Below, piece after piece: positions 3,379 to 10,226 of a stretch of DNA of 13,637 nucleotides. Under the pieces are notes generated by a model. That model saw nothing but the letters and a program-made list of their open reading frames with translations, was not told where the DNA came from and searched no databases. Every line of letters starts with the position of its first letter. Positions within the stretch are counted from its first letter, which is position 1. Location of the stretch: positions 1 through 13,637 of the forward strand of contig NZ_CP102098.1 of assembly GCF_024582835.1 (NCBI RefSeq). Direction: 5' to 3'. The position numbers and the translations under genes were made by a program. The stretch comes from Vibrio japonicus. Its GTDB lineage: Bacteria; Pseudomonadota; Gammaproteobacteria; Enterobacterales; Vibrionaceae.

Positions 3379-4161
3379 TCAGAACTCGATTTTTTCAAGT
3401 TGCCCGAATACATCACGGGCCACGGTTTTAATACGCTGTTTTTGCATGATATTAAAACGATCAGTTGCAATGGCTTCCTCAATAGTAAGCCGCGCCTCTG
3501 TCATTTCTTTAATATCAAGCCCGAACGTATCTTTATTACGTTCATGCAATGTAACCAGACCGGCAATGGACTTTTCACTTTCTTTAAATAGCGTTGTTTC
3601 GGTAAATTCTTTTCCGTTAGTGTCTGTTGTGCCGAAATGCTCATTCAGCCACAGGACAACCGGAGTATTGGAAATTCCCTTAATGATGGAGTGGAAGCCG
3701 TTAGCAGTGTCGCGCAGGTTATCACCCCCGCCAATAATGGAGTGGATATATACACGCTTGCCGGATTCTTTCAGCATTTCAAAAACATCGTTTTCAACCA
3801 TGTATTGCAGCAACGGCAAGAAGGTATTAGCGCCGCTATCAATTACACAGGGTTCCTCAGTTTCAAGGATTGCAACAACCAAGTTATCGAATTTACGCTG
3901 ATCCAGATTGTTATCCGGCTTCATTACCGGGATATGTGTAACCTTGAGAGCGTCATAAGCGGCCAGAGTTGCGTTAACCTGGTCAATATCAAAAGCGGAA
4001 ACAGAGCCGTGAGCTGTTTTAATATACTGCGCGAGAAGGGCAGAAATGAAAGATTTGCCGATACCGCCCTTGCCTTGCAGGATAAAATGAACCGTGTTTT
4101 TCATGCTTGCACTTTCCTTTTTTTCGGTTGCTTCGGTTGCTTTTGCCTGTTTAGTGGTCAT
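3379..4161 (-). CDS. traL: TraL/StbB-like ParA-family ATPase
   Basis: This 260-residue P-loop protein has a deviant Walker A, GKGGIGKS, at residues 30-37. It continues with a ParA/MinD-like core (FDIDQVNAT near 57-65, VIDSGANTF near 105-113). The motifs and the spacing of the whole chain resemble RP4 TraL (a protein of 241 residues, recalled from memory) and the StbB group of R388, which links plasmid position in the cell to conjugation. There are two candidate starts. ATG 4161 has AGGGGA eight bases upstream, overlapping the stop of the previous gene. ATG 4104 has an AAGGA-type site and would give exactly 241 residues, skipping a low-complexity Lys/Glu/Thr leader. I kept the longer form. It is the second gene of the oriT-proximal minus-strand operon. 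Confidence 0.85.
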   Translation of the reverse strand: MTTKQAKATEATEKKESASMKNTVHFILQGKGGIGKSFISALLAQYIKTAHGSVSAFDIDQVNATLAAYDALKVTHIPVMKPDNNLDQRKFDNLVVAILETEEPCVIDSGANTFLPLLQYMVENDVFEMLKESGKRVYIHSIIGGGDNLRDTANGFHSIIKGISNTPVVLWLNEHFGTTDTNGKEFTETTLFKESEKSIAGLVTLHERNKDTFGLDIKEMTEARLTIEEAIATDRFNIMQKQRIKTVARDVFGQLEKIEF

Positions 4162-4835: not shown

Positions 4836-5258
4836 ATGAGCAAGCCAGGCAATGAGAAGCTGACCGAATCGGTGGCGTTGCGTCTGCCGGAAGGTCTTTA
4901 TAACCGTCTGCTAGGTGAGGCCACCTTGCAGGGCGTTAGCTTGGGCCAGCATATCCGGCAGCGATTGGGCGAGGTAGGAACCGCACCTATTCAGTCCGCC
5001 GTTTCCCTAGAAAAGATCGAGCGGGCAGCCGCAGCCGCTGCACAGATCAAGAAGGCCAAAAAGATTAAGAGCAGTGATGAAAAGCAGCGCCTTATTTACC
5101 TGTTCAACAAGACGAGCAACAACGTAAACCAGTTGGCGCACCGGGCTAACTTGGATTACAACGCCGGGACTATTAGCGAGGCCACTTATAGCAATATATT
5201 GGATCAGTTGGAGCTGATGGCCCGTTATATGAAAGCGGTGATTAAAGATGTTGATTAG
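4836..5258 (+). CDS. mobC: MobC/TraJ-like relaxosome accessory protein
   Basis: This 140-residue protein has a ribbon-helix-helix-like N-terminus (SVALRLPEGLYNRLLGEATLQ, then GVSLGQHIRQRL). Its C-terminal part carries the MobC signature region around residues 88-115 (LIYLFNKTSNNVNQLAHRAN). Such proteins bind the inverted repeat next to nic, open the strands and help the relaxase load. The start at ATG 4836 has a good GGAGGT site nine bases upstream. Its stop codon overlaps the relaxase start by 11 bases, so both proteins are made together. It is the first gene of the plus-strand mobilization operon and lies just after the putative oriT. Confidence in the family is high; DNA target assignment is inferred. 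Confidence 0.85.
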   Translation: MSKPGNEKLTESVALRLPEGLYNRLLGEATLQGVSLGQHIRQRLGEVGTAPIQSAVSLEKIERAAAAAAQIKKAKKIKSSDEKQRLIYLFNKTSNNVNQLAHRANLDYNAGTISEATYSNILDQLELMARYMKAVIKDVD

Positions 5259-7770
5259 AGTCCGGGGCGGTGAATCAGGTATTAAGGAGTATCTGGAGAA
5301 TGGCCAGAAGCAGGGCCGCGAATTTGACCGCGACACACTGGACGAGCGCGTTATTTTGTCGGGTGATTTAGAGCTAACCGACAGTGTTATAAATGGAATG
5401 GGCAAGCAGGGTGAAAAATATCTGCATATTACTTTGGCGTTCCGTGAGGATGAAATAAGCCGTGAGGCTTTGCAGAATATAACCGATGAATTTAAAGAGT
5501 TTGCCTTTTCAGCATATCAAGATGATGAGTTTAATTTTTATGCTGAGGCACACTTGCCGAAAATTAAAAGCTATAACCACCGTGGAACAGGTGAGTTTAT
5601 AGAGCGAAAGCCACACGTTCATATTGTGATACCTGAACAGAATTTGTTAAGCGGTCACAATTTAAACCCGCTTGGCAAAGTTGAGCAGCAGACTAAATTC
5701 CTTGAGGCATTCCAGGAACATATTAACGCCAAATATGGATTAGCCAGCCCGAAGGATCACCAGCGCCTAGAGCTGACCGGCGAACATGAAATGATAAGCC
5801 GATATAAAGGTGATGTATTCACCGGGCAAGGTGGAGAGATTAAAAACGAGCTGTTGGCCGCTGTTATAAAAAACAACGTCAACGACTGGCAGCAGTTCCG
5901 GGAGCTGGCCGCCGAGTTTGGCGAGGTGAAAGAGCGCCGGGGCGGTGAGTACCTGAATATAAAGCCGGAAGGTGCCGCCAAGGGTGTGAACCTGAAAGAG
6001 CCGCTTTTTTCGCGTGAGTTTATCGAGTTGCCAACCGCTCAGAAGGTGCAGAAGTTGGCCGCCGAGCAGGGCGGGGGGTACAGCACACCAGGGCGACCCA
6101 AGCCGACACCGGAGCAGATCAGCGAGCGCCTGAAAGAGTGGCACGAAGTCCGCGCCCGTGAGGTGCGTTACCTCAATTCCGGCAACCGGAAAATGTACGC
6201 CGAATATAAGGCCGCCGACCAGGAGCGCCGCCGCGAGATTCTGGCCGACCGTGAACAACGATTTAACGCCAAATGGAGAACAGCAGACTATGAGCAACCA
6301 GGACAGCACCGAGCAGCTTTTGCCGATCTTAACAACGATTTGCGAACAGCAGGCCGCCATATCGAATCAGCTAGCCGAGTTGATGGAGGCGTTGAACAAG
6401 CAGCCGGAGGGATCGCTAATAGACGAACTCGCAGAGCTGTTAGCGCCGCTATCCAACGACTTAACGGAAATCAAACAGAGATTGGCCAACAGCGAGAGCA
6501 GCGACCAGAGCGAGCCGCCCGCCGACAGTCTGACAGCGTAGCCAGTCAGTACCGCCGCGACTTGGCAGAGCAGCGACAGCAGCAGACCGGCCAACAGGGT
6601 GAAATGGTACAGATCAAGCGCGAGCTGGACGCCGCCCGCCTACTGGCCGCCACCAGTCAGAGCCACGGCGTACAGCCGGAGCGGTACGAAATCACCAAGG
6701 GCAAGGACGGCAGCGACCGGATCAAGTGCGGCACCCGAAACCTGAACGTGTCGGATTTTCTGACCAAGGAGCTAAACCTACCGTGGCAGCAGGCCCGCGA
6801 GATTTTGCGCGACATCTACGCCGAGCAGCAGGCCCAGGAGCCGCAGAAACAGCACCGAGCCAGACCCCGCGCCGAGTTGTGGGCCGAGTACCGCGACCAC
6901 TGGAAACCGGCACAGCGCGAGGCCAAGGGCGAGGCATGGGAGCAGCAGAAGGAGCGCGACAAGCAGCGCCGGGGCGAGTTGCGGCAACAGTGGTACACCC
7001 GGAAAAACCGCATCGAGGGCGACAAGGGGTTAACCAGGGCACAGCGCCGCGCCGCTTTGTCCGTGGCCCGGATGGAAAAGGCACTTGCTGACAAGGCGCT
7101 ATCGGAGCAGATCAAGGACGAACGCCAGGCATTGAAAGAACGGTTTAACAAGCCGCCCGCCGAGCAGTTCCGGGAGTTCCTGACCGAGAAGGCCCAGCAA
7201 GGCGATCAGGCCGCCCTTTTGGAGTTGCGCCGACAGGCCGACAGACCCAGCCAGGCAGAGCCAGGAACGCCAACAGTGGAAGGGCAGCAGCAGGAGCAGG
7301 CCGCGCCGATCATGCGCCGCCTGAGCTATCAGGTAGATCGCCGGGGCGATGTTCATTACAGCGATGACCGAGGCCGCCGCCTGTTTACCGATGCAGGCCG
7401 GGAGGTTCGCACATACCAGACCAAGCCCCAGGAGCTGGAAACCGCCCTACGGCTGGCCGTGCAGAAGTTTGGCCCGAAGCTGACAGTTAACGGCACCGAT
7501 GAATATAAAAAGGCCGTGCTGGACGTTGTGGCCGCCAGTGGTATGCGCGTCACCTTTGCCGATCCGGCAATGGAGCAGGCCCGGCAGCAACGGGAACAGG
7601 CCGCCCGCCGTGTTCAACAGTTTGACCAGGAGCGTAACCAGGCCGCCCGCAAGGCCGCCCAGGAGCGCGAACAGCAACGCCAAAAGGAAAGGGAGGAACA
7701 GCAGCAGGAGAAAGAGAGAGAGCAGCGGAGAAGCCGCAGCAAGGGCCGCGATGGTGGCCACGGACTTTAA
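5248..7770 (+). CDS. MOBP-like relaxase with C-terminal LPD7 domain
   Basis: This 840-residue nicking and strand-transfer enzyme begins MLIRVRGGESGIKEYLENG. Tyr15 is the likely catalytic tyrosine. Metal-binding histidines are proposed as His102 (AEAHLPKIKSY) and the HxH pair His123/His125 (RKPHVHIVIPE). Residues 1 to about 190 form the relaxase domain. Residues about 340-450 are a low-complexity Arg/Gln/Ala stretch that carries another gene in a second frame. Residues about 470-560 contain NVSDFLTKELNLPWQQA, common in long TraI/MobA-type proteins. Residues about 690-770 look like an LPD7 domain (SYQVDRRGDVHYSDDRG, ALRLAVQKFG, VNGTDEYKKAVLDV). A Gln/Arg/Glu coiled tail ends the protein. The ATG overlaps the end of mobC and has no clear ribosome site, so translation is coupled. 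I cannot place it in a MOB subfamily beyond a general MOBP likeness. Confidence 0.9.
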   Translation: MLIRVRGGESGIKEYLENGQKQGREFDRDTLDERVILSGDLELTDSVINGMGKQGEKYLHITLAFREDEISREALQNITDEFKEFAFSAYQDDEFNFYAEAHLPKIKSYNHRGTGEFIERKPHVHIVIPEQNLLSGHNLNPLGKVEQQTKFLEAFQEHINAKYGLASPKDHQRLELTGEHEMISRYKGDVFTGQGGEIKNELLAAVIKNNVNDWQQFRELAAEFGEVKERRGGEYLNIKPEGAAKGVNLKEPLFSREFIELPTAQKVQKLAAEQGGGYSTPGRPKPTPEQISERLKEWHEVRAREVRYLNSGNRKMYAEYKAADQERRREILADREQRFNAKWRTADYEQPGQHRAAFADLNNDLRTAGRHIESASRVDGGVEQAAGGIANRRTRRAVSAAIQRLNGNQTEIGQQREQRPERAARRQSDSVASQYRRDLAEQRQQQTGQQGEMVQIKRELDAARLLAATSQSHGVQPERYEITKGKDGSDRIKCGTRNLNVSDFLTKELNLPWQQAREILRDIYAEQQAQEPQKQHRARPRAELWAEYRDHWKPAQREAKGEAWEQQKERDKQRRGELRQQWYTRKNRIEGDKGLTRAQRRAALSVARMEKALADKALSEQIKDERQALKERFNKPPAEQFREFLTEKAQQGDQAALLELRRQADRPSQAEPGTPTVEGQQQEQAAPIMRRLSYQVDRRGDVHYSDDRGRRLFTDAGREVRTYQTKPQELETALRLAVQKFGPKLTVNGTDEYKKAVLDVVAASGMRVTFADPAMEQARQQREQAARRVQQFDQERNQAARKAAQEREQQRQKEREEQQQEKEREQRRSRSKGRDGGHGL
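6290..6541 (+). CDS. Gene nested in the relaxase gene: 83-residue acidic helical protein (TraH/MobB-like position)
   Basis: In the frame shifted by +1 from the relaxase, ATG 6290 opens an 83-codon frame (MSNQDSTEQLLPILTTICEQ, later LMEALNKQ, LIDELAELLAPL and EIKQRLANSES). Leu and Ile are spaced in heptads, Asp/Glu greatly outnumber Lys/Arg, and it ends at TAG 6539-6541. GGAG at 6275-6278 lies 11 bases before the ATG, which is loose but usable. The overlapped relaxase segment (residues 348-431) is low-complexity Arg/Gln/Ala, which suggests that selection acts on the nested frame. RP4 carries acidic TraH inside traI, where it stabilises the relaxosome, and RSF1010 carries mobB inside mobA. A relaxosome role here is an inference from position, acidity and helicity, not from sequence identity. 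The frame is open further upstream (ATG 6158), but that stretch lacks protein-like composition. Confidence 0.6.
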   Translation: MSNQDSTEQLLPILTTICEQQAAISNQLAELMEALNKQPEGSLIDELAELLAPLSNDLTEIKQRLANSESSDQSEPPADSLTA

Positions 7771-9259: not shown

Positions 9260-9393
9260 AAGCCGTTGCCCTTGCCGCTTATATCACGTTCAGCGCCTCG
9301 CTGATCGTATCCGTTGCCGCCGCGACAGAAGCCGCCACCAACCGCCAGGCCGTTGAAGCGTTCGCCGCTCAGGTGCAGGAGGTGCGGCCATGA
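9256..9393 (+). CDS. Membrane or exported microprotein, 45 residues, unknown function
   Basis: This 45-residue frame starts at ATG 9256, sharing ATGA with the stop of the previous gene, and ends with ATGA shared with the protease start. It has a hydrophobic N-terminal half (MKAVALAAYITFSASLIVSV) that could be a signal peptide or a single membrane helix. The second half is a short amphipathic helix (TNRQAVEAFAAQVQEV). The tight overlaps on both sides are the main support for its being a real gene. No ribosome site is obvious beyond GGAGGGC just upstream within the preceding gene. No family is recognised. Confidence 0.6.
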   Translation: MKAVALAAYITFSASLIVSVAAATEAATNRQAVEAFAAQVQEVRP

Positions 9394-10226
9394 TCCGCAG
9401 ACTGTTAGCCGTGTTAGCCGCTGCCGTACTTGCCACCGTGGCGACCGTTGCCCAGGCGAATGACTGGCGAGAGCAAGCCGCCGATGTTCTGCCGTCAGTT
9501 GTGACCGTGAAAACCGTAGACGCAGCAACGGCCAGCCGAGTGATGGAGATCCCCGGCTTTCGTCTGGGATGGGCCACCAAAGCCACCGAATACCTAAACC
9601 GCTGGCTGACCGGCTGGCGACCGACACCCACCGACCAGACCCCGACCTATGACAGCACCGGATTTGTGGTAGAGATCGAGGGCCGTTCGTATGTGATGAC
9701 CGCCGCGCATTCCGTGGAGGCTATGAGCAGGGCAGGGTTTACCGTTATCACCGCAGAGGGTGAGCAACACGCCGCGCAGCTTATCGGCCATGAGCCGCGC
9801 CACAGAGGCGCAGACGTTGCCCTGTTAGCCGTGCCGACCCTGAACCGGCCCGCGCTGCCGTTCGCCGCAGGAACGGAGCGAGGGGAGCCGGTGGCCGCCG
9901 TAGGAGGCCCGGCAGGATTTAGCGAGAGTATCAGCGCCGGGATCGTGAGCCACCCGCGCCGGTCATGGCTGGCCACGTCCAGGAACAACGAAGTTTTGAG
10001 GGGAGGGCGCGACCTGATCCAGATAGATGCCAGAATTTACCAGGGCAGCAGTGGCGGCCCGGTGATTAACCAGGCCGGTGAAGTTGTGGGCGTGGTGAGC
10101 TTCACCCATAACCCTACCGGGTTTGGGTTTCTGGTGAACGCCAAGGATGCACAGCAGGCCGCCCAGCGTATCGCTACCCGTTGCAGCACCGCGAACCCTT
10201 GCGACTGGCTGGCCGTTGTCCAATAA
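9390..10226 (+). CDS. Exported trypsin-like serine protease (DegP/HtrA fold, no PDZ)
   Basis: This 278-residue protein has a clear signal peptide (MIRRLLAVLAAAVLATVATV, cleavage likely after AQA at residue 23). A chymotrypsin-fold domain follows. The triad reads His107 (MTAAHSV), Asp142 (GADVALLAV) and Ser221 (GSSGGPV). GFGFLVN near 244-250 fits the end of the second barrel. There is no PDZ domain, unlike DegP or DegQ. Two cysteines near the end (265 and 271) could form a disulfide, consistent with the periplasm. AGGTGCAGGAGG lies just upstream of the start, which overlaps the microprotein stop. Plasmid maintenance does not need such an enzyme; it might act on envelope proteins during mating, exclude other plasmids, or respond to stress. 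These are inferences, and the substrate is unknown. Confidence 0.88.
   Translation: MIRRLLAVLAAAVLATVATVAQANDWREQAADVLPSVVTVKTVDAATASRVMEIPGFRLGWATKATEYLNRWLTGWRPTPTDQTPTYDSTGFVVEIEGRSYVMTAAHSVEAMSRAGFTVITAEGEQHAAQLIGHEPRHRGADVALLAVPTLNRPALPFAAGTERGEPVAAVGGPAGFSESISAGIVSHPRRSWLATSRNNEVLRGGRDLIQIDARIYQGSSGGPVINQAGEVVGVVSFTHNPTGFGFLVNAKDAQQAAQRIATRCSTANPCDWLAVVQ

Follow-up and report, generated by a model that had tools for sequence, protein, structure and literature searches.

The relaxase gene of the window, by which we mean the whole stretch of DNA analysed here (a complete contig of 13,637 bases that forms part of a 4.2 Mb genome), carries in its +1 frame a genuine, selected gene for a small acidic protein. 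A second gene inside the relaxase gene had been proposed in the initial annotation, and its existence is borne out by homologues in the same slot and frame of other relaxase genes, by a null test that keeps the relaxase protein constant and by the substitution pattern within the overlap. We consider it probable that this gene for an acidic two-helix protein encodes a relaxosome accessory protein, a counterpart of TraH of plasmid RP4. The features concerned are listed in Table 1.

Table 1. Features of the window at and around the nested gene.
Feature	Position	Strand	Basis
MobC-like gene, overlapping the relaxase start	4836..5258	+	weak Pfam MobC match; mobC annotated here in relatives
Host gene, 840-aa MOBP-type relaxase	5248..7770	+	homologues annotated as LPD7 domain-containing protein next to mobC; LPD7 E 6.4e-20
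Candidate ribosome-binding site GGAGA, 10 bases 5' of the ATG	6275..6279	+	sequence; duplex energy -6.4
Nested type A gene, 83-aa acidic protein, +1 frame of the relaxase gene	6290..6541	+	ORF, same-slot homologues, null test, substitution pattern
Helix 1 (residues 2-36) predicted for the nested protein	6293..6397	+	AlphaFold2 model
Helix 2 (residues 43-71) predicted for the nested protein	6416..6502	+	AlphaFold2 model
C-terminal LPD7 domain, relaxase residues 692-782	7321..7593	+	Pfam PF18821

The nested gene lies within a linker of the relaxase, with the relaxase part on one side and the middle and LPD7 domains on the other. The neighbouring MobC-like protein, a presumed relaxosome partner, scores 19.5 bits against the Pfam MobC model and does not reach its cut-off of 23.2. 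The window also encodes a RepA_C replication protein, a TrwB-type coupling protein and a ParA-like ATPase, which by its place in relatives would be StbB. Two ORFs at the contig ends, 13162-13637 (open at the end) and 1-601 (open at the start), have matching frames and, by eye, a similar coiled-coil composition, as if they were one gene spanning the junction of a circular plasmid, a gene that would be KfrA-like. A further ORF at 9390-10226, which by eye and by its GSSGGPV motif presumably resembles a trypsin-type serine protease, is an odd cargo for a plasmid this small. Elsewhere in the same genome, on contig C1 (2387353-2388090, L002), a protein 29% identical to relaxase residues 527-780 is encoded without the relaxase part, and the relaxase has no relatives in the viral collection scanned.

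The nested ORF runs from an ATG at 6290 to a TAG stop at 6539-6541 and begins at relaxase residue 348; its position, its 83 codons, its +1 frame and its own start are all as read in the initial annotation. The protein is also acidic as claimed there, with a pI of 4.05 and a net charge of -12, and has a single Cys; over the family described below, which we call type A, the pI ranges from 4.05 to 4.5. AlphaFold2 predicts a two-helix hairpin with a mean pLDDT of 80.2, but a pTM of just 0.37, and Foldseek returned 0 matches at E <= 10 for this model in the PDB. Baculo_PEP_C and DUF937 were considered among Pfam families and rejected, both falling under their curated cut-offs, and NCBIfam gave no match near any cut-off; the family is without a name in the libraries searched.

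Type A is defined here by nested and free-standing members. A tblastn search of plasmids with the 83 residues matched 33 records at E <= 1, and the nine nested plasmid loci retrieved from this list (three from Vibrio, two from Plesiomonas and one each from Dongshaea, Aliivibrio, Photobacterium and Xanthomonas arboricola) all use the +1 frame of the relaxase. In order to avoid selection on the nested frame, 80 loci were chosen by their relaxase alone, and the pooled set of 117 sequences was searched with profiles in six frames. Type A is nested in the +1 frame in 24 entries of this set, one of which is a copy of the window, leaving 23 distinct loci with the window among them, a total that contains near-copies; one more locus found later (L122) brings the distinct nested loci to 24. 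The counts omit two window copies (L001 and L120), pieces of genes counted already (L021-L027) and relaxase matches that are weak or incomplete and lack the slot (L002, L015-L017, L019 and L020). A stop in the +1 frame beside an intact relaxase had been named beforehand as evidence against a nested gene: this occurs in one of the 24 distinct loci, L044 of Methylobacter luteus, where the nested frame (5090-5243 region) has one stop and the relaxase frame is open across the slot, and in no other.

Four predicted proteins on contigs elsewhere share 70-90% identity with the nested protein of the window. Profile searches of sampled genomes matched 2 of 398 in the phylum, namely the own genome and L121, whose weak match, in a 252-aa ORF, we judged to be chance; among 394 genomes sampled in the order, the two matches were the own genome and L122. 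The nested copies are easy to overlook, since what the plasmid records listed annotate over them is a hypothetical protein or just the relaxase.

Outside a relaxase, type A occurs in the pooled set only in four MOBP plasmids (L005-L008) from Burkholderia, Xanthomonas, Pseudomonas and Bordetella, pBVIE04 and pNCPPB464.67 among them, each of which has two tandem genes of 76-79 aa immediately upstream of traI; the second gene of L006 and of L007 extends 4 bases past the annotated start of traI. These tandem hypothetical proteins are homologous to the nested protein (profile comparison of nested and free-standing members: prob 97, E 3.5e-11), have the same start and length and likewise belong to a relaxase gene, which they adjoin as two free-standing copies, whereas the gene of the window is nested. 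The two copies of each plasmid are clearly unlike each other and possibly form a hetero-pair. A profile search of predicted proteins gave 107 matches at E <= 0.001, and the names shown for them are hypothetical or uncharacterized.

For the null test, the relaxase protein was kept and its synonymous codons were re-drawn 500 times per locus, and the +1 translation was scored against a profile built from free-standing copies only. The test covered 21 of the 23 loci, L039 (whose nested protein is that of L038) and the interrupted L044 being left out, and the nested protein outscored the best of its 500 reshuffles in 21/21. The window reached 48.4 bits against 7.6 for its best reshuffle; the margin of L114 was narrow (10.3 against 8.2 bits). 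The net charge of -12 compares with +3.9 +/- 2.1 in the draws for the window and was equalled in 0/500; a charge as low as the observed one appeared in 0/500 draws for 20 loci and in 1/500 for L108. The openness of the +1 frame is by itself weak evidence: it is preserved in 2/500 draws for the window, but over the 21 loci in 1 to 187 of 500 (187/500 in L038), and relatives with short linkers have long +1 ORFs too, which are rich in Arg and Pro (for instance net +18 over 115 codons in L009). When 13 divergent loci are compared over the same codons, identity is higher in the nested than in the relaxase frame in 78/78 pairs (means of 0.41 and 0.26), with some bias in favour of the nested frame, by which the pairs were aligned. 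The G+C content of the overlap fits the +1 frame as well, at 0.54, 0.38 and 0.75 for nested codon positions 1, 2 and 3.

Selection on the overlap can be read from close pairs of loci, 12 in number and mutually non-independent, in 10 of which the synonymous divergence of the relaxase is lower in the overlap than in every equal-sized segment outside it (0.035-0.331 in these ten, against overall outside values of 0.275-0.770). The overlap is identical between L035 and L038, where 16/699 segments are as low. The drop in synonymous variation that the initial annotation had called for is thus present in most pairs; for the window and L028 it is not significant alone, 287/672 segments being as low. 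In this pair, the amino-acid divergence of the relaxase is 0.123 in the overlap against 0.013 outside, with 0/672 segments as high, and the nested frame has a pN of 0.049 and a pS of 0.329. Differences at relaxase codon positions 1/2/3 number 10/10/66 outside and 14/8/5 inside. This reversal recurs in 13/13 pairs, seven of type A and six of the TraH type described below as a positive control: position 3 of the relaxase leads outside, and position 1, the third position of the nested frame, leads inside, by a small lead in some. Nested pN lies below pS in 11 of the 12 close pairs, which are all the pairs that differ in the overlap. Both marks of an overlapping gene, synonymous constraint in the host frame and pN below pS in the nested one, are therefore found, and homology and selection together are decisive evidence for the nested gene.

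The same linker holds an unrelated Cys-rich protein, also in the +1 frame, at 57 other loci (including L041, L048, L054-L072, L074-L076, L078-L095, L097-L101 and L104-L107, with L071 and L077 excepted as type A), a number that remains after 7 fragments of the same genes are taken from 64 entries and that contains near-copies. We call this protein TraH-type, since tblastn groups it with a protein annotated as TraH on an IncP plasmid. Not among the 57 are L018, L115 and L116, whose TraH-type match lies outside the segments recognised by the relaxase query (in L116 within traI), and L073, whose match (4027-4143) is partial, split and in a different relative frame from that of the near-identical L070. 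The alignment of the TraH-type proteins (A4) has four invariant Cys columns and the motif C..CP...W...C.C, and their AlphaFold2 model (mean pLDDT 72.9) has a low-confidence start and a confident C-terminal part of three short strands and a helix; the predicted models of the two types differ. Among the loci examined, none has type A and the TraH type together.

Thirteen relaxases have neither protein, a class that was reduced to this size because L102 and L103, at first placed in it, have a diverged A-like +1 ORF and were moved out. Where measured, the linker of loci with neither protein is 60-68 residues long, against 107 in the window, and searches of two such plasmids over their whole length gave nothing for type A at E <= 10 and, for the TraH type, nothing stronger than E 0.99. 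The additional residues that type A carriers have in the relaxase alignment mostly coincide with the nested gene, and similarity between relaxases restarts near its stop.

That relaxosome genes can be nested is known. The accessory gene mobB of RSF1010 overlaps mobA, inside the relaxase gene, and the small mobilization proteins MbeB and MbeD of ColE1 are, like type A, nested in the +1 frame of a long frame, not annotated in the record, which we take to be the relaxase gene mbeA. Membership of the nested protein in these two families was rejected (hhalign prob 0.1 for MbeB and 0.2 for MbeD, against single sequences), and neither family is among the Pfam matches listed for the window protein at E <= 0.01 or for four relatives at E <= 1. 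Closer in kind are the TraH proteins of IncP plasmids (RP4, p14EC001a and p7ME01), which are small, acidic and, like type A, encoded in the +1 frame of a MOBP relaxase gene; two IncP TraH proteins have a pI of 4.05. Acidity (pI 4.05) and a coding frame inside the relaxase gene other than that of the relaxase (+1) are traits that the window protein shares with the TraH family, but IncP TraH is Cys-rich with the motif given above and without a profile relation to type A, and in the IncP-type TraI of p7ME01 (L116) it lies near the C-terminus, unlike the linker position of type A and of the 57 TraH-type loci. By sequence, the nested protein was rejected as a member of the TraH family, the two nested families giving an hhalign prob of 0.2 and the window protein having one Cys against four invariant Cys columns. 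The analogy with RP4 traH drawn in the initial annotation is nonetheless apt, as other relaxases of this family carry members of the IncP TraH family in the same place and frame; of its two suggestions, an independent or a highly diverged example, the first fits better, and the profile comparisons with TraH-type, MbeB and MbeD proteins speak against the second. The type A family, its sharing of a slot with TraH and the alternation of nested and free-standing forms appear to be new: in open-access full texts, with subscription journals mostly outside, no report was recognised that describes the family, its presence inside LPD7 relaxase genes or a slot common to it and TraH.

TraH of RP4 has been described as acidic, as encoded inside traI but in a different frame, and as stabilising the interaction of TraI with TraJ at oriT (PMC7314908). 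A TraH-like role at the relaxosome is the best reading for type A because the two proteins have the same slot, the same frame and similar acidity and do not co-occur. What we infer for the binding partner, the biochemical role and the expression in the host of the window is that the protein would be made from its own start codon inside the relaxase message, would bind the relaxase, alone or in complex with MobC and oriT, and would stabilise this complex or help to pass it to the coupling protein. Against equal function of both types stand their unrelated sequences and differing models; what speaks for it is position, acidity and non-overlap. Since 13 relaxases have neither protein, the role may be dispensable there or met otherwise. 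It is rather unlikely that this real protein, linked as it is to relaxase genes, has another role in transfer, as a regulator, as a factor for entry exclusion, or as a chaperone or inhibitor of the relaxase. The present results do not separate these roles, and ColE1 MbeD, small and +1-nested too, is annotated as a mobilization/exclusion protein; against such a role stand the slot, frame and acidity common to type A and TraH-type proteins, their lack of co-occurrence and the absence of a profile relation to MbeB or MbeD.

We hold it very improbable that the +1 frame has no start of its own and is read only via a frameshift, as a fusion to the relaxase N-terminus. Such a fusion would be compatible with the open frame upstream of the ATG, which extends over 52 codons in the window, 77 in L043 and L111 and 88 in L047. 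An in-frame stop, however, directly precedes the nested start in L049, L050 and L112 (plasmid pES100 of Aliivibrio fischeri ES114) and lies one codon before it in L004 and L114, which argues for separate initiation, and the free-standing homologues agree in start and length. An alternative start in the window, an in-frame GTG at 6158, would yield a product of 127 aa, but the conserved part begins near the ATG at 6290. The candidate ribosome-binding site is suggestive only, because its duplex energy is matched in 51/500 synonymous draws, and six of the 21 loci (L035, L038, L043, L047, L077 and L108) have a Shine-Dalgarno strength that does not exceed the null. That the frame is open by chance and its similarity across loci merely echoes relaxase conservation is scarcely credible: long chance +1 ORFs do exist in relatives and the L038 frame often survives reshuffling, but the reshuffles, the 78 pairs, the reversed substitution pattern and the free-standing homologues all contradict it.

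The history of the slot was examined on a quickly built tree of the N-terminal regions of 98 relaxases, in which L046 is absent since its sequence begins inside the relaxase. The states type A, TraH-type and none, assigned without L102, L103, L116 and two loci with free-standing copies, require at least 8 changes on this tree, and a single clade of the 23 type A carriers against the 70 others is rejected (p-AU 0.02). These two results suggest exchange, or repeated gain and loss, at the slot, on a tree with long branches and many open forks on which gain is indistinguishable from loss. A recombinase family search of the own genome gave no match, an uninformative result. We speculate, tentatively, that the linker is an exchange slot into which ready-made mobilization genes of either type were inserted or swapped via conserved flanks, with the relaxase reading through them in a shifted frame. 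This quite possible course of events is hinted at by the free-standing tandem copies of type A, by the nesting of TraH at two different relaxase positions, by the shortness of the empty slot and by the rejection of a single type A clade. If true, it would be overprinting in reverse, with an old nested gene and a new relaxase linker sequence.

Altogether, a single relaxase slot is empty or carries one of two acidic proteins that are unrelated to each other, with a constant +1 frame in the nested copies examined. This alternation offers a natural comparison for the role of TraH-like proteins in conjugation. It also offers one for the origin of overlapping genes, where the free-standing relatives allow the sequence of events to be put to the test.
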